Below are positions 8,866-31,240 of a DNA stretch of 64,000 nucleotides, in pieces. Position 1 is the stretch's first letter. The number at the start of each line of letters is the position of its first letter. This DNA is from Bolinopsis microptera (Eukaryota; Ctenophora; Tentaculata; Lobata; Bolinopsidae). The translations under genes and the position numbers were made by a program. The notes beneath the pieces were generated by a model, which was not told where the DNA came from, did not search any database, and saw only the letters and a program-made list of their open reading frames with translations. The stretch covers positions 19,806,103 to 19,870,102 of the forward strand of contig NC_087072.1 of NCBI RefSeq assembly GCF_026151205.1, in the 5' to 3' direction.

Positions 8866-8879
8866 CTAACCAGGACTGA
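8866..8879 (+). promoter_or_regulatory. Splice acceptor just upstream of the NAGLU start
   Basis: Pyrimidine-rich ttgttttcctaaccag ends about 8 nt before the ATG. It would serve a 5'UTR intron or spliced-leader addition; the sequence cannot tell which. Confidence 0.4.
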
Positions 8880-8881
8880 AC

Positions 8882-11092
8882 ATGAGTTTGGCTAATTTAT
8901 CTCTACTCATCTTTCTCATCAAGATTACTACCTGCTCTTCACTATCAAATCTTAAACAGTTTCTATGCAGAGTCACCCCGGCTAATTGCCAGTTCGTAAA
9001 TGTTTCTCTTGTTCAGAAACAAACTTCTCTAGAGTTTTTCAAGTTACACACGCACAACAGTTCAGCTGGGACTGATCTCCTCATTAAAGGTACATCCAAA
9101 ACTGCAGTTATAAGTGGACTGAATTACTATCTAAGAGTTCATTGTAATACAACTCTCACAGAGTTTGGCTTATCCCGTGAGACATTCAAAATTGTTCAGC
9201 TGAATGGTACTGTATATCAGATTTTGAATGGCCTTACACACTTCTATGGAAACATTTGTGCTTACTCCTACTCTTACTGGGCATGGAATTGGGATATGTG
9301 GGAGAAACATATTGACTGGATTGCTTTTAGGGGATTCAATATGATTTTTGTTCCTACTGGCGTTGAATATGTTAATCTACAAATGTTCAAAATGCTTGGT
9401 CTACATGAAAAAGAAATTTACGAATTTTTTAATGGACCTGCATATCTTGCTTGGTCTAGAATGGGAAATATGAAAAATTTCACTGCTCCTCTCACACCCG
9501 AGTTCATAAACTTCCAGACATCTCTGCATAAAAATATCAGTAGAAGATTCAATGAACTGGGTGTAAAAGTTGTGATTCCTGGCTTTTCTGGATTTGTCCC
9601 TCGTGAGCTGATGCAACTTTACAACAAGACTAACTTCAATGATGTTAGTTGCTGGAACGGTTTTAAAAAAGAATATTCATGCCTGGTGCAGATTGATCCA
9701 ACTAAAGAATTGTACAGGACGATTGGTAACGTCTATATGAAGATTTTGTTGAAAACATTCCAAACAAATCACTTTTATGCTGTTGATATGTTTAATGAAA
9801 ATACTCCAAAAAATACAAGTCTGCAGTACCTTCAGTCTTGCGGTAAGAACACAGTATCACTTATAAAGTCTGCAGACCCTCATGGTGTTTGGCTTTTGCA
9901 AGGATGGACATTTGGATACGATCCGTTTTGGGAGAATGCTAGGGTAGAATCATATTTGAAGCATGTTGAAAGTAGTGACATAATCATTCTTGATATGTTT
10001 GCTGAAGTTAATCCAACATGGAATCGTACTAAAAGTTTCTATGGCAAGCCATTCATTTGGAGTGTGGTTAACAATTTTGGTGGTAATACTGTAATCAATG
10101 GCAATATAAGGGAAACTTTGGAGGGATTTAATCTCGCATTGAAGGATAGCTTATCCCTGATCGGTTTTGGATTTATGCCTGAGGGTATTTATGAAAACAC
10201 CATTTTTTTAGATGCTGTAATGCAGTTTACAACATTACATAACAACAATCAAAGCTTACGGAATCCCTCTGAATTTTATGCTAAATGGAAGGATAGAGTT
10301 TCATATTACAGATATAGTGACTACAAGGGTGGTATTGTCACAAATATTGCAGACAAATTGTATTCTGGTGATAGTAAAGGTTCTTTTCCAGACAGCTCTT
10401 TCATATATCAGCAACCAGGGTTTCATATGCTATTTAAACCTACTTCAGAAATGTCAGATACTATTGAAATTCTGCTTAATTATCTTGAGATAATCCATCG
10501 CAAGCAAGTCAGAGAGTTCTCTGAAATATTCTTTTATGACATGAGTTCTGTGCTTCAAAGCTATGGTGATCACTTGTTTCATAAAATCTATGAACAATTG
10601 GTTAGTGCTTACGAAAAAAGAGACATTAACTTGCTTACCAGTTGTGCTGGAATAATGATCAAAACTATACAATTGCTGGATGAAGCCTTCAGTCTTCTTC
10701 ATCTCAAATCTTTGCCATGTTATCAGAGTGATATAAACTCCTTTGCTCTGTTGATCAAAGAAAACCCAATGAAGCTTTCTCAAAATTTCAGACTTCAGTT
10801 AACCACTTGGGGGTATGACAATGAAGTTCTGGACTATGCCTTCAAGTTGTGGTCGGGGCTACTGGCCAAATACTATAAACGTAGATGGGAGACATTTTTT
10901 GACTTTTTACAGCTGTCATTATTAGAAGACACACCATTTGATGATAAAGGTTTTGAAGTTGAGGTTACTGAAGTGGAGAGAAAATTTGTGACTGAGGGTG
11001 TTTCTGAGAGTTGTATCCCTTGGGGTGAACAAAGTATATCAAAATTTGCTTTACTTGCTGAAAAATTGATATGGCTTCATCATGTTTTGTGA
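8882..11092 (+). CDS. NAGLU: Alpha-N-acetylglucosaminidase (GH89), single exon
   Basis: Lysosomal hydrolase that removes terminal alpha-N-acetylglucosamine, including from heparan sulfate. The 736-aa frame is close to the 743-aa human enzyme. Residues 1-19 are a signal peptide. The family blocks run in order: the NICAYSYSYWAWNWDMWEKH region (about 124-143), FFNGPAYLAWSRMGN (about 182-196), DMFNEN with predicted acid Glu306, and GFMPEGIYEN with predicted acid Glu434 (human Glu316 and Glu446). Several N-X-S/T sites fit a glycosylated lysosomal protein. The start has A at -3 and follows a splice-acceptor-like tttcctaaccag by 8 nt, so a 5'UTR intron or trans-splice site is likely. The coding region has no intron, unlike the multi-exon vertebrate gene. 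It is followed by a same-strand phosphatase gene. Confidence 0.95.
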   Translation: MSLANLSLLIFLIKITTCSSLSNLKQFLCRVTPANCQFVNVSLVQKQTSLEFFKLHTHNSSAGTDLLIKGTSKTAVISGLNYYLRVHCNTTLTEFGLSRETFKIVQLNGTVYQILNGLTHFYGNICAYSYSYWAWNWDMWEKHIDWIAFRGFNMIFVPTGVEYVNLQMFKMLGLHEKEIYEFFNGPAYLAWSRMGNMKNFTAPLTPEFINFQTSLHKNISRRFNELGVKVVIPGFSGFVPRELMQLYNKTNFNDVSCWNGFKKEYSCLVQIDPTKELYRTIGNVYMKILLKTFQTNHFYAVDMFNENTPKNTSLQYLQSCGKNTVSLIKSADPHGVWLLQGWTFGYDPFWENARVESYLKHVESSDIIILDMFAEVNPTWNRTKSFYGKPFIWSVVNNFGGNTVINGNIRETLEGFNLALKDSLSLIGFGFMPEGIYENTIFLDAVMQFTTLHNNNQSLRNPSEFYAKWKDRVSYYRYSDYKGGIVTNIADKLYSGDSKGSFPDSSFIYQQPGFHMLFKPTSEMSDTIEILLNYLEIIHRKQVREFSEIFFYDMSSVLQSYGDHLFHKIYEQLVSAYEKRDINLLTSCAGIMIKTIQLLDEAFSLLHLKSLPCYQSDINSFALLIKENPMKLSQNFRLQLTTWGYDNEVLDYAFKLWSGLLAKYYKRRWETFFDFLQLSLLEDTPFDDKGFEVEVTEVERKFVTEGVSESCIPWGEQSISKFALLAEKLIWLHHVL

Positions 11093-11467: not shown

Positions 11468-13351
11468 GGTGTACATGAAAAGTATTAATGAAGCTGCTCT
11501 ATCTGTGCTTTCTACTCCTACCACCACCCATCTCGTCCATCCCTGAACTATCTTCAAAGACTGTTTATGATGCTGTAAGAGGAGATATCAGGAATGTGGA
11601 GACTTTATCAAATGAAAAGGGACAATGCATGCCTGACAGAATATACTTCCTGTTAAGGCATGGTAGCAGAAACTTTGGTAATACTATAACTACCCGAATA
11701 GATGCATTTTTAACAAGGTTTGCCAAGCTGGTAGATTCAGGTATTGTGACATTGAACTCAGATATGGAGTGGTACCAAGAGTGGGAGGGTGGGGTTTATT
11801 ATACGGACTATGAACTGGTAGTGGAGGGAATGTTAGAACACTTCTCTATTGCAACTAGGTACAAAGGGAAGTTTCCCACTTTATTCCCAAATTACTCAGT
11901 GTACAATTACTCACTGCAAGCAACAACTAAAACCAGGACTATTCAGAGTGCACTTTCGTTCATGGATGGGTTGCTGCATGGTACTGGACCTCTTGAATCA
12001 AGTCCTGATAGACTTGACATTGTCATGAAGGGTTACATGCCCCCTGGTATGGTTATCGAAAAGAATGATGAGGACAGATTGTTGCGGTTCATGGATTGTT
12101 GTCCAAAATATGAAAAATATATAAAAACACTGAAGTGGAAGGATGAATCAAATCTTTTTGATGAACTTCCTCTTTATCAATCTGTTGTGCAATCAGTGTC
12201 GTCAGCATTAAAGTATGACGCAACTTTAAATGACTCAAAAGCCCTGTATTATTTGTGTGCCGCAGAAAACATGTCACCAACGCAGGCTGGACATTCTCAG
12301 TTTTGCAGCGTGTTTGATGAAGAATCACTAGATGTGCTTGACTATAGTAAGGATCTTGAAAAGTACCATAAATACAGCTACCCATATCCTACAACCTATA
12401 AAATGTCCTGTTTGCTTTTGAGTGACATCATCAAAGAAATGGAAGGCAATAAGAACACTCCAGTGCTTAAGTTTGCTCACGAAGAAACTGTTATGCCACT
12501 GCTGTCGTTGTTAGGCTTGTTTGATGATGGTGAGATTATGACTCATAAGATGGTTGACTGGAAGAATCGCAAGATGAAGGTTTCAAGAGTCACACCTTTT
12601 GCTGGAAATGTGGCTTTCGTGAGGCAATCGTGCCCTGGAGATGATGAACCTCGAATACAGGTACATTTATATAATTTAGAGAGCATGTACCTGATTCTTC
12701 TTTTTAGTTACAGCAGTATTTTTAGTTACAGTTATTAAAGTCATTGAATGAAGTAATGATATTGTTTTCAATCCGCTCATAAGATAAACTCTGTGTTCAG
12801 AAATATCTTAAAATACGCTAATGTTCAGGTATTTAATACAGTACTACAATTTATACCTACTCATTACTCAATTGTTAGTTACAATGTTTAGATCACTTTT
12901 CACTGTTAAATTAGTAATTTTTTCAGTTGAACAGCTGCGTTTAACTATCTATATAATACTTCATAAAAATTGTACACATTTTCAGGTAATAGTTAACGAA
13001 AAGGAAGTAAAAGTCCCCCTTTGTAGCAGAGCCGGATGCACTGTTGCTGACCTAAAAGAAATCATCAGCACCCGAGCAGATGGTTGTAATTACAACCTGA
13101 TATGTAACATATCCCCAGACAAATGGGACGACAAACACAGCACCCAACAGATCATAATAGCGGTACTTCTCACTCTCTCACTCTGTCAAGCTACCTACAT
13201 CTTCTTTCACTGCATTAAGAGGTGCCCACTGAACAGCAGGGAGGATCAGACAGACTGCTCGGATCAACAACCCTTGATTGAGGAGGAAAGTGATCAGGGG
13301 TATGCTGACGAACCGGACAGTAATTTAGTAACTACAGTCTTGGATGACTAG
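11468..13351 (+). CDS. MINPP1: MINPP1-like histidine acid phosphatase with C-terminal membrane anchor
   Basis: Multiple inositol-polyphosphate phosphatase family, which dephosphorylates InsP5/InsP6 by a phospho-histidine mechanism. Coding exons are 11488-12660 and 12986-13351 (phase 0, cag|gtacat ... ttttcag), giving 512 aa against 487 in human. Residues 1-17 form a signal peptide. The nucleophile motif is RHGSR (57-61). The acid motif reads H331-E-E333-T where the family has HAET. The second exon encodes the Cys-containing end of the domain, then a membrane segment at about 446-467 and a short acidic tail, where vertebrate MINPP1 ends in an ER-retention signal. A type I membrane protein is inferred. 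Acceptor ttcttctttcag ends 20 nt before the start, and an out-of-frame ATG at 11474 precedes it. A paralogous family member of the same fold is possible. Confidence 0.85.
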
Positions 13352-13543: not shown

Positions 13544-14149
13544 TGTTTTTGTTAAATTTGTGACAATCACAAGCTTCCGTTTGGCTTTTTATATGTTATG
13601 GCATATTTATTGTTATTATTTGTTTGTTATCAATTCATTTATTTCAGTACTATTAATGGCATCATACTATCGAAGGGGTATTTTGATTATTAATTCAACT
13701 TAAAGGACCAGTTAACTGAAAAATTTGTAGTCTCCAATTTGGCTAAGATTTAAATCAGCTGTGACAAACTGGTAAAGAATCGTATCGCCGAAAGAACCAA
13801 CTCTCTAGCGTACGTGTAACGCGTGTTATTGCAATAATAAGCTGTGGCCTCGTGACGTCATAAAGTCCCTCAGTGCGCGCTTGCATAGCGTTTAATACAT
13901 TGCAAATGTTTATCATCGTCAATAAAACACGTGTAACTCACTCAAATTTTAGAATTATGACTATTACCCTAGTTCTCCAAAATCCTTATAGTTTTGGCTA
14001 TCATCCTAACTAAAGGAATAGCTGATTGGATGTACAGTGCTCACGTCATGATTTTAAACAGTGATATAGGTTCTTGAACAGTGGCGGGTGAATGTACGGT
14101 TAGAAAGTTTCTGCTATTACAACTTATGTCATATGTGATAATTTTGGAT

Positions 14150-17100
14150 TGTTTTCATTGCTTAAATAGAACGATCTTTTCTGCCTTTTATCAGTAGTGA
14201 AATGACATGTTCTCTTAAGTAGTCCAAGTCTAGATGTAGCTTTGGAAACAAGCGCTTTACATTGTGCACCCCAATTAAACCTGGAGTTTATTGCGACTCC
14301 TAAATCTGACTGAGAGGGCACAAAGTCAATATCACTTCCAGAAAGTTTATAAAAGAAGGTATTGAATGGCAAGTTATCCAGCACGTTTCTTTGCAGGGAC
14401 ACAGAGAGGGCTTTGCACTTTTGTGGGTGGAACTTCATTCGATTTCTCACTGACCAATCATATAATCTATTGATGTCATTTTGGATTATGTGATGGTCAG
14501 GGTAACCAAGAATCTCCCTCCAAATTTTAGTGTCATCTGCATAAAGGGCGATATTGGTGCCTTCAGAGACACAGGAGAACATGTCATTTATAAATATTAC
14601 AAACAATAAAGGGCCAAGTATAGAACCTTGAGGGACACCAGACCGAACTGGTAGAGAAGAAGACGTTTGGCCTCCTATCACTACTTGTTGTTGTCGCCCC
14701 TCAAGATAGGACTTAATAAATTTAAGCATTAGTCCATCGACATTAAAAATATTCTTTAATTTACTTAAAATGAGGTCATGCGAAACGCTATCAAAGGCTT
14801 TCGCAAAATCAAAATATATTATATCAGTCCTGGACCTGTTATTCAATGCAAGTGCAAGATTGTCCGTGAAAGGTATCATTTGGGTTGTGCATGAACGTTC
14901 ATTAACAAAACCGTGTTGTCGGTCATCCAACAGATCAGAACACGCAGCGTATAATGCAGTCTTTATGCACCTTTCAAAGACTTTCATTACAAGAGATGTT
15001 AACGAGATAGGCCTGTAGTTCTCAACCGAAGACTTATCGCCCTTTTTGTGCACTGGTACTACAAGTGCCAGCTTCCAATCAGGGGGTATGCATCCGCTCG
15101 AGAAAGACAGGTTAAATAAAACACTAAGTGGGTATGCAATGCTTTGGGCACAGTTTTTGAGGACTCTCCCATGAATCCCATCAGGGCCAGGGGCCTTGTT
15201 AGGATTTAACTTTTTAAGAATCAACAGAACATCTTCTCTACTAAACACAAGACTTGAAAAACAATCATCACGAAAATCTATGTCAATGCCATAATCGCTC
15301 TCTTGAGAAAACTGCTCATAAAAATATTCGTTAAAAAGGGCAGCTTGATCAGATGGATTGTTTCGAAAGCGATTATGATATTTGACAGTTTCAGGGATCC
15401 TGGTTGACTTTGATTTAGATTTAACGTAGGTCCAGAATTTCTTGGAGATAAGAGCATCATCGGAGTCATCCTCAACACTGAGTCTCATTCTTTCGTCCAT
15501 CAAATTTTTAAATTTTGTGCGAAATGCACGAAACTTTTGTTTATGAGACTCAGAGTTGCTCCCCTTATGCCTTATTCTCCATTTCTCCTTATTTCGTAGG
15601 AGACGATCACATTCGGAGTCATACCATGGGGGCTGGAACTGAGACTTAATGGTCTTTTTAGGGATCCATCGGTCACAGGCTGCACCGAGAACTCCTCTGA
15701 ATCGACTCCAGGCAAGATAAGGATCATTACACTCAAATATACTATCCCAATCGATGCTAAATAACTCAGAATTCAGGCCCCTAAAATTACCTTTACTATA
15801 ATTAAAGATCTTTCTTTTAGGCTGCTTAATATACTTGGTCTTAATATCAATGTCAAATGTGATACAAAAGTGGTCGGACATACACATTTCGTTTTGATCT
15901 AAAACTTTAACATTCTTAATAAGGTTTTGAATGTTAGTGAACACAAGATCTAAGGTGTTGCCTGACTTGTGAGTAGGGGAGCTAATAAGTTGTGTATGTC
16001 CGAGGTCATCAGTGAGAAAATTTACAAAGCTAGAATGTAGCTGGCAAGATGACTGACCATCTGGCCAGGAAATCGAAGCCAAATTAAAGTCACCTACCAG
16101 AATGTGCCTTTGCAATTTTCTGGCAGATGCTAAAGTAACAAAATGTTTCTTGAAAGATTCAAAATTATCTAAGCCAAGCGTTCCTACTCTATAAAATGTT
16201 GATATACAAAAGTTTCTTCCACACTGAGTCTTAATAATGATGGATAATAATTCAGCTTGAACACTAACTTTAGAGAACTTTAGACTCGAGATATCAATGT
16301 CTGTACTATGGGCAATCAGAACACCACCACCGTTTTTTCTGAATTTCTTGGGCTGGGTTGCATCCACTGGATGCGATCTTAAGGATCGGTCAAGCCTAAA
16401 TACTTTGTATTTGTCAGGGAGCACCTCATTACTGAGAATGGAATTTTTCAGCCATGTCTCGTTTAGAATAATGATGTGAGGCTTATGTTTGTAGATATAA
16501 CCATGGAATTCATGTATCTTGGTCATATTTAGTGGTGGTGTTCCTGATGCTAAATCGCGTGTATTTAGGAAACCATGGACATTATTGTAAACAACGGATA
16601 AATTTGGTCCAGGGTTCAGTAAGGAACAATTACAAATTACTATCAGGGAAATATTAAGGAGAGATAGAAAAACCAGACCACACCTAGACATGACCCCAAG
16701 CCAGCTGCTGGTTATACTGAAAAGTAACTTAACAGTCTGTTTCGGTGACATGGTAGGTGACAGTTTGGTTTTTGTGGTAGATAGCAATTTTACAGAAATT
16801 GCAGCTAAGGCTGTCCCAATGCCCCCCTCCCCCCTATACACAAGTTTAAAGTGTCTGAGAAAAATGGTACAAAATATTACCATAAAGTAAAGATTTATGG
16901 ATGACCTCAAACATGGTACAGAGTGTATTTTAGGTTGTAGGGGAGCACCAGGGAGTATATTAGCATCGATAGTCAAAGAAAATATATACAAAATAACATA
17001 AAAATAAAATATACCCAATAGAGCACATAACATATGACGAGACAGAAGACAGGACAACAAATTTTCCCCGTTACCTATATTACTTTTACTGATGATAACA

Positions 17101-17153
17101 TACCTAGAAAACATACCAGTTGCAACACGGTGTTGTTGAGCCGATATTCCCAT
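14150..17153 (-). CDS. LINE ORF2: endonuclease and reverse transcriptase (3' end displaced)
   Basis: Apurinic-type endonuclease plus reverse transcriptase used for target-primed integration. The open frame is 1009 codons, but residues before about 135 may be upstream of the true start; a Met near residue 135 precedes NPGP and SVVYNNVHG, the usual N-terminus. EN residues: LNETW (about 230), GDFN (354) and SDH (426). RT: APGPDGI (654), FDFAKAFDSVSH (781), PQGSILGPLLF (841) and YADD (871). The frame is open across both domains. After residue about 987 (SFYL) it runs into unrelated sequence and stops at 14124, because the rest of the ORF lies inverted at 19.37 kb. The element was probably mobile recently but this copy cannot be active. 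Confidence 0.92.
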
Positions 17154-17347
17154 AGAACTTTAAAGTATATTATTAACAGAATTGTGTCTCGCCGTTGTGT
17201 TTTGTCAGGTATTGTGCTATGATATGAAGTAACATACATTATGCTATCACTTCGTTTGAATACATATAAATAACATCCAAATGATCAGATCCAATAGGAT
17301 ACTGATGCAGACAATGAAAAATTGAAATATTGAATTGGATTACCACA

Positions 17348-18874
17348 TCAGTATCCCATTGGATTAAACCACTTTGAGTGTATGATTCTGAGATAGAACT
17401 TTGCCAACACTGGCATCCCAGCCTTGGGGCTGGGATGAATATCATAAAAGCCCCTATTGTCACACTTAGGAAATAATCTCTCGTTTCTGTTTCCATAGCG
17501 GTCTAAGAATGCCCAAAAAACATCAAGGTAAAACAGTTTATGCCTAGAGCAGCGATCAAAGATCAAATTATTCATAGCACAAACATTACCAGGGATTTTC
17601 TCTTGTCCGTTGGGGTGGACTGGTGGAATAGCTTGTACAAAAACACGTGCATTTGGATAAAGTTTTTTTTTTTTTTTTGCTGTCTTCATAAGGTCACTCA
17701 CAGGGGTCTTGAGATGATTGACCCCCTGGGTACAGTACCGAATGTCGTTGGCACCGAAGCTTAAGAACAGTTTCTTTACCTGCACAAGAGGGTTCTTTGT
17801 ATAAAAGGCCTCAATAGATTTCTGTATAGCTGACATCTTAAGCCCACCCTTAGCTATGTTGGTGACAGTTTCTTTACCTCTACTGAGGCGATCAGCGTCC
17901 AATCGAGCAGCAAAGGAGTCACCAGCAATGAGAATGATAGACTTCTGGTGTTTTTGAGAGTCTGTGATGGGGGCTTTTGGGGATACTTTATTAGGACTGT
18001 CGGATGTAGGAGAGGGAAGAATAGGAGATGAAGGGGAAGAGGAAGAGGAAGGTGTGGCTAACTTTCTGAAGGACAGACTATACCTCCAACAAGTTTCATT
18101 GTCAGAAGGTGCAACTCCTGGGGCAATCCTGTGCCTCATGACTTGCTGTGCACCAGGCTTCATGATGTTCAGTGTGCCATTGGTGGCAGGGAGGGTGAAG
18201 TCTGCGTTAATCAACTCTTGGGCTGGCCTTGACCTAGAGGCCCTAGTTGTGCGTTGTTCTACTTGGGTTGTATCCAGTACAAACTCAAGTGACCGTGGAG
18301 CTCCTATTGAGTAAGTGCAAATGGAGCTGGACTGTGATATTATTAGGTCTTCATCGTCTTTATGGAGGCTTAACTTAGCTTGCTGAGTGTCGTACCTAGT
18401 AACAAGGCAAGCATCCATGTTGTTGGTGGTGGAGGGGAGGTCATTAATAAGTCCCATCAACTTAAAGATGCTAGGGAAGTTGTTGATGGGATGTGGCTTG
18501 TTAACTATGTTACCAAAGCAGTAGTCTTCTGATGAAGGGCTTAGCCATAGGGTGTGGACTTTTTTAGATTTGCCTTCAAGATTCATTGAATCCAATTCTT
18601 CTGTGATTTTCTTGAATAGATTTTCGTTCATTCCAGGGAGGACTGGGACGTGCTCTACGAGCGCATGTGGGCTATACGAAACATTTTGAACAGTAGTTTC
18701 CTTCTTCGTTTTCTTTTCCTTCTTCTTTTCATCTAACCGTTCTATCTTTGAAGCAAGCTTTTCCTCTTTCAGACTGTCCAGGATACTCTCAGTGAGGAGG
18801 GTATGCATGTGTTGCTTTACTTCAAGAGATAAGTTTTGCAGTAAGGCGAGGAAGTTGGCGGGCAGTGTTGGCAT
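17348..18874 (-). CDS. LINE ORF1: coiled coil, AlkB-like dioxygenase and SGNH esterase fusion
   Basis: The 508-aa frame is upstream of ORF2 on the same strand, with about 195 bp between. Residues about 8-60 are Leu/Lys-rich and coiled-coil-like. Residues about 150-272 match an AlkB-type 2-oxoglutarate/Fe(II) dioxygenase: H171-x-D173, H248, and the R264-x5-R270 pair that binds 2-oxoglutarate. A Ser/Pro linker follows (about 273-310). Residues about 311-500 form an SGNH/GDSL hydrolase: G-D-S320, G-A-N376-D and D478-I-H480. Both active sites look complete. An esterase in ORF1 is established for CR1-type LINEs. The added AlkB domain is what stands out here; a role in repairing alkylated RNA or cDNA is only inference. 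Confidence 0.85.
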   Translation of the reverse strand: MPTLPANFLALLQNLSLEVKQHMHTLLTESILDSLKEEKLASKIERLDEKKKEKKTKKETTVQNVSYSPHALVEHVPVLPGMNENLFKKITEELDSMNLEGKSKKVHTLWLSPSSEDYCFGNIVNKPHPINNFPSIFKLMGLINDLPSTTNNMDACLVTRYDTQQAKLSLHKDDEDLIISQSSSICTYSIGAPRSLEFVLDTTQVEQRTTRASRSRPAQELINADFTLPATNGTLNIMKPGAQQVMRHRIAPGVAPSDNETCWRYSLSFRKLATPSSSSSPSSPILPSPTSDSPNKVSPKAPITDSQKHQKSIILIAGDSFAARLDADRLSRGKETVTNIAKGGLKMSAIQKSIEAFYTKNPLVQVKKLFLSFGANDIRYCTQGVNHLKTPVSDLMKTAKKKKKLYPNARVFVQAIPPVHPNGQEKIPGNVCAMNNLIFDRCSRHKLFYLDVFWAFLDRYGNRNERLFPKCDNRGFYDIHPSPKAGMPVLAKFYLRIIHSKWFNPMGY

Positions 18875-19369
18875 CTTGTTGTGAAGTGTGGGAGGATCGG
18901 GAGGAGACTGGGTGATCTGGATAAGAGATCAACAGCAGGATGTTTCAGTGGCACCGTTATAAACCCTAGCAATCTGGATCTGAAACAGTCAATAGGCCAG
19001 AGATTTATAGTTCAGAGTGAAAAAATTTGAATTATAATGAACAGAGTTGTGGTAAAGAACTGTATAGCAGAAAAAAGAATGCAATACTTATCTAAGGGAG
19101 AAGTAGCTAAAAGGAGTTAACAAATTTCAAACATCACTAGATCTCTAACAATTAAACTAACCTCGTACCAGACCGCAGGAGCCCTGGCAGTACAAGACTA
19201 CCAGGGCAATAGGAAGAAACGATTACCACCTCCACAACATGCCATCTAACTCAGATCCATCACACCCAGGACACCGGCAGACTTTACTCCAACGGATTAC
19301 TCATCGGTAGCCATGCCTAAATAAATGTAATAGATTTGTAGTGTTGTAATTAGTTTAAAACTAGGTCTA

Positions 19370-19884
19370 TATTAATTAGGTCTATATTTGAACATTGTTC
19401 TGTCATATGGTCCCCTCAATCTGCAACTCATCTTCAACAGTTTGTTGCTATCCAAAAGAGGGCTATTAAATGGATCAATGGTGAACCTTACTCCAGTTAT
19501 AATGACGATAAACTTGCTACAGAACAAAAGAAACTAAATATTCTCCCTGTTAAACAGAAGTTTATTTATAACGATCTTATGACCTTCTATAAAATAGTGA
19601 ATAGCATAATTCCAGTTTCGCTCCCTACATATATAGTCCTATGCCGTCCAGAGGGCACCCGATACACTAGGCACAATGCTCAAATAATTGATATGTCGGA
19701 TACTTCAACTTACATGAGTACCACTGTGCCCTGCTCGGATGCCTTCCGAAATAGCTTTTTTCATAGATCTATGCTGAAATGGAATAGTCTACCAGTATGT
19801 ATCCGGCAGTCAGAGCGTATTTCTACTTTTAAGGCCAAACTGATCAAGTACCTCTGGGCTGCCGATACAGTCTGGCCAGATTAG
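19370..19884 (+). pseudogene. C-terminal end of LINE ORF2, inverted relative to the rest
   Basis: The frame IRSIFEHCSVIWSPQSATHL... continues through WNSLP---R---SI-TFK--L to a stop at 19884. This is the standard C-terminus of CR1/L2-type ORF2. A small duplication (taggtctatatt) sits at the 5' breakpoint near 19363-19383. The 3'UTR and poly(A) follow to 20308. Confidence 0.88.
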
Positions 19885-20309
19885 CTCATCAGTCTTATGA
19901 GTCTCAGAAATTTGTTTTTGTTGGTTACAATTCTGTCCGTCCAATTTCCTATCTGCTTGTCCTTTTCTTTTTTCTTTATCAGTTGTGACGGAATTGTAAT
20001 GAACAAAATCCTTATAATTATTTATGATATGTTTGATTTCTTGTTAATGTTTGTCATTCAAATTTGGTAGACGGCCCCAACGTTAATGTGGCTCTTGCTA
20101 TGTGTTGGTTCAGCCGAATTAATTATTATATAATCAAGTTTATTTTTCTCGTTAGTTGTCATCCGGCCAAACATTAAGCAACTTATATTGCAGTACCATT
20201 TATCATTTAGTAACCAAAATATGTCATTGTAATTTTGCATGGCTGAAATGTAACGCTTGATTTATATATATAATGATTAATTGAATTTTCAAATAAAAAA
20301 AAAAAACAC

Positions 20310-29666: not shown

Positions 29667-30354
29667 TCAAGAACCAATGACACCTATATACGATGAGATT
29701 ATTTGAAAACATAGTGAACTATGCAATGTATGTTCAAATGTATATCTAGATATTCGATCGTTTGTGAATGACCTCTTTACATAATTTACCATGTTTGTTT
29801 ATTTTTCTTTCTAAAATTTCATTCGCATATTTAACGGAGTTGGCACGTCTCCAGGGAGAAAAGGACTTGCGGTGACTAACAAATACCCCGCTGTGCAGTG
29901 GGCATAAATCATATATTCAATGTGGGACAGTTTTGAAAAACTTTTAACTGAAGCAAATTTGCGCGTTTTGCTCTAAAGTCATAATTTTAGAAATTTTACC
30001 GGTGAATTCTCTCAAGTCACTTAATTTGTCTAATTTTACCTTTCTGCTTTATGAGGGGGAGGATGCTAACGCGTACAAATGTAAAATCTCTAAATTAGGT
30101 GATTTTAGAAGAGTCGCCAAAAAATCTATAAATTAATGTGTTTCTACACAGATCAAAACACGTAATTTTGCTATTACTTTAGTTAATTTTTTCCAAAGTG
30201 TCTCGCATTTAAACGCGACAATTTTGTTCACCTGCACTGCCGAGTCGTTACGCCACTGGACTCTAGTCCGAATGTTATCCAAGTTTATGCCACCGATGCT
30301 CGAAATAAGAATCCTACCCGCCAATTCAGACATTTAAGACGCCTATCAAGTTAT
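29667..30354. other. No gene seen
   Basis: AT-rich sequence between the MITE and the LINE fragment. It may include decayed upstream LINE sequence, but no RT motif was found. Confidence 0.4.
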
Positions 30355-31240
30355 TGTCCCCATCACCTGCTACACAGACGGGTCACGCACAGACTCAGGT
30401 AGCGGGGCTGGTTATATTATCACCACTGACAACAACAACACTACACTAGATGACAGATCATTCAAGCTTCCCGATTATTGCACCGTTTATCAAACAGAAC
30501 TCACTGCCATCATCGAAGCTTGTAAATATCTATCAACTTATACCAACACACACATCATCATATGGTCAGACAGTCTCTCCTCTATTCAAGCTATATCCTC
30601 GCCCTGGCCCTCAACGAGGAGTAGAACTACTAGAGACTGTTACGACACCCTCAATACACTCGGATCCACTAACACCTTAGAGATCAGATGGATAGCAGCA
30701 CACATCGGATTGTGGGGTAATGAAAAAGCAGACGAGCTGGCCAAAAATGGCACAACCAGTGAATCCACTTTGAATTGCCCAATTCCACAATCTTACATCA
30801 AACGCCTGATCAACGACAAAGTCACCAAACTTAATCAAGAATCATGGATTACTGATGGTCCCAGACAGTGACACACTAAACTGACACTTGGACACAAAAA
30901 AATCAAAAATCTCAACACTACACTCAGTAACAACAGACAAAATTACAGAACTGCAGTGCACCTCATCACGGGACATTGTGGCCTCAACAAACACCTACAC
31001 ACCATTCGCAAATCAGACACAAGTGCTCGTCCTAAATGCGGCGACGAAGAGGAGACTGTCTCACACTTTCTCGGACAGTTCCCGGCTATTGCCCAAATAA
31101 GAGGTCAATATTTCCGGGACTACTACCTCTCTGTCAATGACATATTCGACAACCAACACATCTCCACCATTGTCAACTTTGCAAACCACACTAAACGCTT
31201 AATGGTGCCAGAGGAGTTGGACCAGACAGGTGTAACATAG
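30355..31240 (+). pseudogene. LINE 3' fragment encoding RNase H, one internal stop
   Basis: The frame from about 30355 holds a type I RNase H: CYTDGSRTDSGSGAGY, YQTELTAIIEAC, IWSDSLSSIQAI and AAHIGLWGNEKADELAK, giving the D-E-D-D set plus the histidine region. It continues through a degenerate Cys/His segment (SARPKCGDEEETVSHFLGQ) to a stop at about 31240. A single in-frame TGA near 30868-30870, probably an old TGG, is the only lesion seen. RT and EN are absent, so it is a 5'-truncated copy of an element from a clade carrying RNase H (I-group type). A CT-rich 3'UTR and a T-run follow to about 31470. Confidence 0.85.

Follow-up and report, generated by a model that had tools for sequence, protein, structure and literature searches.

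The closest described systems are the type IV esterase ORF1 proteins of CR1/L2-type LINEs, such as ZfL2-1. As far as the available text of the two sources goes, these resemble the locus analyzed here in carrying an SGNH domain in ORF1 directly upstream of an ORF2 with endonuclease and reverse transcriptase (EN-RT) (PMC3905857, PMC4120745). According to the available part of PMC3905857, the ZfL2-1 ORF1 esterase is hydrolytically active; it binds phospholipids that carry a negative charge and does not bind oligo(A) RNA. In the family of this locus, an AlkB-like dioxygenase precedes the esterase. Compared with the type IV esterase ORF1s as Schneider et al. describe them in the portion of their paper at hand (PMC3905857), this AlkB-like domain is an extra one, and it would bind nucleic acid. 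Neither AlkB nor dioxygenase appears anywhere in the main text of the ORF1 classification in PMC4120745.

AlkB domains are also carried by other replicating elements. A Ty3/gypsy retrotransposon of Phalaenopsis encodes an ALKBH5-like ORF with the same HxD...H and RxxxxxR motifs. It differs in being an LTR element whose AlkB is a separate ORF of the ALKBH5 clade; demethylase activity was demonstrated there, and no SGNH is mentioned in the available text (PMC9289625). Plant RNA viruses carry AlkB domains that are proposed to protect their RNA; here the replicating element is a virus genome, and the sections available again mention no SGNH (PMC544882). The platyfish texim genes encode an SGNH domain related to the CR1 esterase and are found with a Helitron. 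According to the part of the source available, texim is an intron-bearing gene with the Helitron downstream or in the last intron, and the main text nowhere uses the word "dioxygenase" (PMC4021074). In contrast, SGNH, AlkB, Rep, and helicase share one frame in the Helitron-like element described below.

Human ALKBH3 and ALKBH2 are cellular repair enzymes. They are the nearest solved relatives of the AlkB domain, followed by E. coli AlkB, and phylogenetically they separate from the mobile-element domains. Targeted searches of the open-licence full-text literature, in the portions available, found no LINE or Helitron described with an AlkB; subscription papers and Repbase notes lie beyond it, and a prior description is possible. 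The accessible text of PMC11294593 and PMC7915175 covers host alkB genes only.

The ORF1 protein

The window is the whole 64,000-nucleotide stretch of Bolinopsis microptera DNA that was analyzed. A minus-strand open frame at 17348-18874 translates into an intact ORF1 of 508 aa. Sequence, Pfam, and alignment divide it into an N-terminal region, an AlkB-like dioxygenase, a Ser/Pro linker, and an SGNH hydrolase, all on the minus strand. The N-terminal region (residues 1-90; 18605-18874) is Lys/Glu-rich in composition (14 K+R, 12 D+E). The AlkB-like Fe(II)/2-oxoglutarate dioxygenase domain covers residues ~91-273 (18056-18604) and is assigned from a family profile, Pfam matches of sister proteins, and an independent profile. 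Its predicted Fe(II) ligands are H171-x-D173 (18356-18364) and H248 (18131-18133), and R264-x5-R270 (18065-18085) holds the predicted 2-oxoglutarate/substrate arginines. The linker is Ser/Pro-rich in sequence (residues 274-312; 17939-18055). The SGNH hydrolase domain (residues 313-508; 17351-17938) contains S320, G344, N376, and H480 and is assigned from Lipase_GDSL_2 and a family profile.

A preliminary description of this DNA had proposed that AlkB and SGNH domains share one frame, with both active-site residue sets, directly upstream of an EN-RT ORF2. This is borne out, and a residue audit located every residue that it named (H171, D173, H248, R264, R270, S320, N376, D478, and H480). The architecture is almost certainly that of a LINE ORF1 joining the two domains. 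As a separate observation, residues 400-402 (17669-17677, minus strand) are three extra lysines in an A-run that are absent from 22 compared copies.

The LINE copy in the window

The first part of ORF2 (14124-17153, minus strand) encodes the endonuclease and reverse transcriptase (Pfam RVT_1 4.7e-30, Exo_endo_phos_2 7.2e-11). Its last residues come from flanking DNA, and the element match ends at 14163. On the other side of ORF1 is the 5' untranslated region (18875-19371, minus strand). Within it, all or part of a 244-bp segment (19128-19371) matches the same side of 22 of the 29 other family loci, and this segment therefore belongs to the 5' end of the element. The 3' part of the element lies in the opposite orientation (19372-20300, plus strand), is 99.6% identical to L044:6730-7657, and comprises the C-terminal end of ORF2, the 3' UTR, and an A-tail. 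The open frame for the ORF2 C-terminus runs there from 19354 to about 19881-19884 (plus strand). Against the uninterrupted copy L044, window positions 19127-14163 match on the minus strand and 19372-20300 on the plus strand. The window copy (14163-20300) thus carries a 5' inversion, joined at 19371/19372, that breaks ORF2. The inversion is of the kind attributed to twin priming. Intact copies of the family are present elsewhere in the genome. The element has an ORF1 with an EN-RT ORF2, an A-tailed 3' end, and multiple copies, as LINEs do.

Three further open frames were observed on the plus strand of the window. Those at 8870-11089 and 11479-12735 match NAGLU (1.6e-105) and histidine phosphatase branch 2 (6.7e-33), respectively, and are probably host genes. 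The third, at 30338-30868, matches RNase H (2.6e-17) and is probably a retroelement remnant.

The SGNH domain

The expected Lipase_GDSL_2/SGNH match is found with the window protein alone (Pfam 1.8e-8, residues 325-484). Sister ORF1s match Lipase_GDSL_2 as well (L039 3.7e-10, L040 1.2e-13, L042 2.9e-13; Pfam), and the family profile matches the SGNH esterase 6njc in the PDB at 4.5e-9. S320, G344, N376, and H480 are invariant in an alignment of six ORF1s, and the copies that cover them retain all four, apart from a single gap at H480. The catalytic Asp of SGNH enzymes is expected in a DxxH motif. D478 is at -2 from H480, not -3, and it is absent at the aligned position in L039 and L042, so the acid of the putative SGNH triad is not established. 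A degenerate SGNH-block pattern occurs at ~1.4 times its control and is uninformative.

The AlkB domain

The AlkB half had been expected to match Pfam or profile models. This holds at the family level, but not for the window protein alone, for which neither Pfam (E up to 10) nor the PDB gives an AlkB match. A single-sequence PDB search with the window ORF1 matched neither the AlkB nor the SGNH domain. In Pfam, the nearer sisters L031 and L036 match SGNH only, or 2OG-FeII_Oxy below threshold (0.021), as in the window protein. The ORF1s of L039, L040, and L042 share 39-41% identity with the window protein across residues 92/97-508 and match PF13532 (2OG-FeII_Oxy_2) at 4.8e-16, 6e-17, and 5.4e-17.

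A six-sequence profile of the AlkB region, with the window's sequence included, matches human ALKBH3 (1.2e-10), ALKBH2 (1.4e-6), and E. coli AlkB (3.1e-3) in the PDB. Among the 35 distinct PDB sequences that it finds at E up to 1, 31 are AlkB enzymes, four are mite allergens (0.068 and weaker), and ALKBH5 and FTO are absent. Independent support comes from a profile built, without the window sequence, on L045-47, three ORF1s that are more distant. It matches the window protein at 5.7e-10 (hmmsearch, with the database size set to 100). Against the PDB, it matches ALKBH3 at 3.6e-24 and, weakly, a DNA N6-methyladenine demethylase at 5.5e-4. These matches point to an AlkB domain that resembles ALKBH3/ALKBH2, of the single-strand DNA/RNA repair type, rather than the m6A erasers.

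When eight ORF1s of mobile elements, at 18-48% identity to that of the window, are aligned with one host ALKBH2-like exon (nine sequences in all), 13 columns are invariant, among them H171, D173, H248, R264, and R270. The HxD...H iron motif (H171, D173, H248) is also invariant across 15 AlkB sequences, and R264 and R270 form the RxxxxxR motif. A chance motif match is ruled out by the PF13532 matches of the sisters, the invariant columns, and the family and independent profiles. The residue after HxD is D174 in the window; it is N, N, G, and D in L031, L036, L039, and L042, and D, S, and N in L045-47. Given this variability, the specificity of the AlkB domain may have drifted.

Copies, retention, and selection

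A search of the whole genome (264.65 Mb) with ORF1 yields at least 88 matches, with 85 of 660 candidates scored. Among the matches listed are at least 19 full-length (1-508), stop-free copies at 94-100% identity, the window's included. Sister families at 39-48% identity have the same domain order over spans such as 2-508, 28-508, and 92-508. Other genomic copies with the AlkB-SGNH order, as the preliminary description had anticipated, are thus present. It had also raised the prospect of copies lacking AlkB, and the domain is present in each of the 22 copies that retain the ORF1 N-terminus together with the SGNH part. This count comes from an audit of the 29 other copies, L002-L030; some of the 22 two-ended copies are interrupted and were matched in pieces. 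H171 and D173 are each kept in 27/27 covering copies (2/29 are uncovered), H248 and R270 in 29/29, and R264 in 28/29 (one gap). In the SGNH domain, S320 and N376 are each kept in 28/28 covered copies, D377 in 27/28 (one N), and H480 in 26/27 (one gap).

The suggested comparison of dN/dS across copies indicates purifying selection on AlkB, with omega between groups of 0.16 (group 1 against group 2) and 0.25 (groups 1 and 2 against group 3). For L039/L043 against L040-42, AlkB omega is 0.167 at a dS of 0.81; within groups 1 and 2, it is 0.30 and 0.32. SGNH omega is 0.10-0.19 between groups; the within-group values for groups 1 and 2 are 0.25 and 0.13. All omega values are descriptive, as pairs share branches and are not independent, and dS of the window against its 35-49% sisters is mostly saturated. 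On these sequence comparisons, both the AlkB and the SGNH domain look maintained.

The pair in other LINE-like elements

A genome search with PF13532, at E up to 0.01, gives at least 151 matches, which lie in open frames of recurring lengths (150 of 587 candidates scored; all those listed exceed the cut-off). Seven places were examined; four are mobile-element frames (L045-L048) and three are host-gene-like (L049, L053, L054). L045 (551 aa), L046 (593 aa), and L047 (646 aa) have AlkB followed by SGNH. Their PF13532 matches are at 4.2e-19, 2.8e-19, and 5.7e-23, and their Lipase_GDSL_2 matches, at 1.7e-4, 1.0e-3, and 8.3e-6, are all below the Pfam cut-off. Each is upstream of an endonuclease-type ORF (Exo_endo_phos 1.3e-7 in L050, 2.4e-6 in L052, and a sub-threshold 8.3e-4 in L051), and on this basis they are called LINE-like. 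Profile-profile comparison joins their AlkB to the window type (98.4%, 1e-14), and likewise the SGNH of L045 and L047 (95.7%, 8.4e-9). A search with the L045 ORF1 returns at least 82 matches (79 of 811 candidates scored). Counting L045 itself, these include at least 23 full-length copies with an identity of 95% or more, of which 22 are stop-free, and a sister at 64-67% is represented by at least 16 copies that are full-length and stop-free.

L055 is one of at least 24 frames of 478-479 aa among the matches listed. It has an AlkB domain (1.5e-39 with the window-type profile; 0.0023, sub-threshold, with Pfam 2OG-FeII_Oxy) and an SGNH domain (1.6e-12), and is followed by an endonuclease ORF, L063 (Exo_endo_phos_2 3.6e-13). 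Two SGNH frames of repeated type were also searched for AlkB. The whole 426-aa frame L058:160-1437 (minus strand) has no match, nor does L061:288-1799 (minus strand), a 504-aa part of a 1421-aa frame. Across the genome, AlkB and SGNH occur no more than 3 kb apart on the same strand in 12 cases, against 0.26 expected; eight of these pairs have SGNH then AlkB and four the reverse. This count uses Pfam-listed matches only and therefore misses window-type LINE pairs. At L044:9-551 (plus strand), a divergent AlkB fragment (PF13532 2.1e-8), SGNH-like by eye, was seen upstream of a window-family copy.

A Helitron-like element with the pair

One open frame of 3321 aa on C3 (C3:14432800-14444200) contains SGNH (6.4e-10, L057), AlkB (7.3e-22, L048), Helitron_like_N (PF14214, 1.1e-22, L059), and PIF1 helicase (PF05970, 8.2e-23, L056), in that order. 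The element is assigned as Helitron-like from the Rep (Helitron_like_N) and PIF1 helicase in one protein. The order of the pair is reversed relative to the LINE ORF1. Helitron-like frames are also present on C10, C12, and C9, the frames reach up to 3388 aa, and Helitron_like_N is also found in L064, L065, and L066 (7.5e-25 to 1.8e-23). The preliminary description had called the ORF1 the most unusual protein in the window. This is an understatement, as the AlkB-SGNH pair recurs in other LINE-like elements and in this Helitron-like element.

A search with the Rep part gives 33 matches, and the best seven are five at 100% and two at 55%. Each of these seven has a listed AlkB match upstream on the same strand, five have a listed SGNH match, and for six the frame length is the same in the AlkB and Rep tables. 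Of the 13 Rep places at 49% or more, a listed AlkB lies no further than 6 kb upstream in eight, whereas five have none listed in that range. Taken with L058 and L061, where no AlkB was matched, this means that the pair is not obligatory.

Descent of the AlkB domain

In a 15-sequence tree, a split (98/96.7) separates the ten mobile-element AlkB domains from the five ALKBH2/3-like proteins, and five window-type sequences join L055 at 100/99. A comparison with host ALKBH genes had been proposed, and in it the host ALKBH2-like exon L049 and the ALKBH3-like L053 and L054 group with human ALKBH2/3. A recent origin by capture from the host's ALKBH genes is not supported, as the host frames stand apart from all ten mobile-element domains. 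When E. coli AlkB is added, the mobile/host split drops to 72/98 and several forks open; a single origin is thus not shown. The AlkB fragment L044:9-551 formed a very long branch in the first tree and was omitted from the later two. Among the sequences compared, the best BLAST match of the Helitron AlkB is L047 (34.5%, 1.1e-21), and human ALKBH3 is at 28.8% (1.2e-17). Exchange of AlkB-SGNH between element classes is plausible but not proven by these sequence relationships. In viral contigs scanned with the window protein, 90 stretches fit a pattern and none is a relative.

Possible roles of the pair

LINE and Helitron replication share a single-stranded nucleic-acid intermediate. Single strands are the substrate of ALKBH3 and AlkB, which reverse m1A/m3C. 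For E. coli AlkB and human ABH3, the available text of PMC544882 describes repair of both RNA and DNA. The presence of the pair in LINEs and a Helitron-like element, this shared intermediate, and the ALKBH3-like chemistry lead to the proposal of a clean-up function. In this proposal, the protein is the ORF1 of a young multicopy LINE, with an ALKBH3/ALKBH2-like AlkB and an SGNH domain, and acts by cleaning up the single-stranded nucleic acid of the element; we consider the chances of this explanation evenly balanced. ORF1p would package the element RNA. AlkB would strip methyls that block base pairing (N1-methyladenine, N3-methylcytosine) from the single-stranded RNA or cDNA of the element, so that reverse transcription could run through, and SGNH would tie the particle to lipid membranes. 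The AlkB domain is probably an active Fe(II)/2OG enzyme on nucleic acid, and repair of a single-stranded template or intermediate has a little less than an even chance of being its main role.

One rival explanation is evasion of host control, with AlkB erasing regulatory methyl marks that the host places on the RNA (m6A/m1A) or on the DNA bases of the element. It has precedents in the available parts of two sources, as the AlkB encoded by the Phalaenopsis Ty3/gypsy element demethylates m6A in ssRNA in vitro (PMC9289625), and host METTL3 and ALKBH5 influence L1 retrotransposition (PMC7873242). However, the profile searches match ALKBH3/2 and not ALKBH5/FTO, the match of the L045-47 profile to the DNA N6-methyladenine demethylase is weak, and RNA marks would not account for the Helitron-like element, which leaves evasion unlikely. 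Non-catalytic use is more doubtful still. The AlkB fold would then fill a gap, as the nucleic-acid-binding module otherwise absent from esterase ORF1s; in those of Repbase, the available text of PMC3905857 reports neither an RRM nor any other structural domain for RNA binding. If binding were the only task, there would be no need for the Fe(II) and 2OG residues to stay invariant, as they do in families that are very divergent.

It is hardly credible that a functionless fragment of a host gene was captured just once, even though the window protein alone has no Pfam match to AlkB. The full-length, stop-free copies and the 39-48% sister families with the same order, the pair in other elements, the retention of AlkB, the purifying selection, and the separation from host ALKBH2/3-like frames (98/96.7) rule this out.

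For the clean-up explanation, recurrence of the pair across element kinds suggests that it helps elements keep their single-stranded copies usable. A broader and more tentative form, which we hold to be somewhat unlikely, is that AlkB-SGNH is a portable two-enzyme module, shared or repeatedly gained by LINEs and Helitrons here, in both orders. AlkB would keep single strands free of methyl lesions or host marks, SGNH would provide membrane or lipid handling, and the pair would be a general anti-methylation kit.

How an esterase ORF1 engages its RNA is a question to which the AlkB fold offers a testable answer. With the same pair in a Helitron-like element, the question moves from RNA marks to single-stranded intermediates generally. 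If unrelated mobile elements keep a repair-type demethylase, nucleic-acid methylation, as damage or as defence, would be a real limit on transposition.
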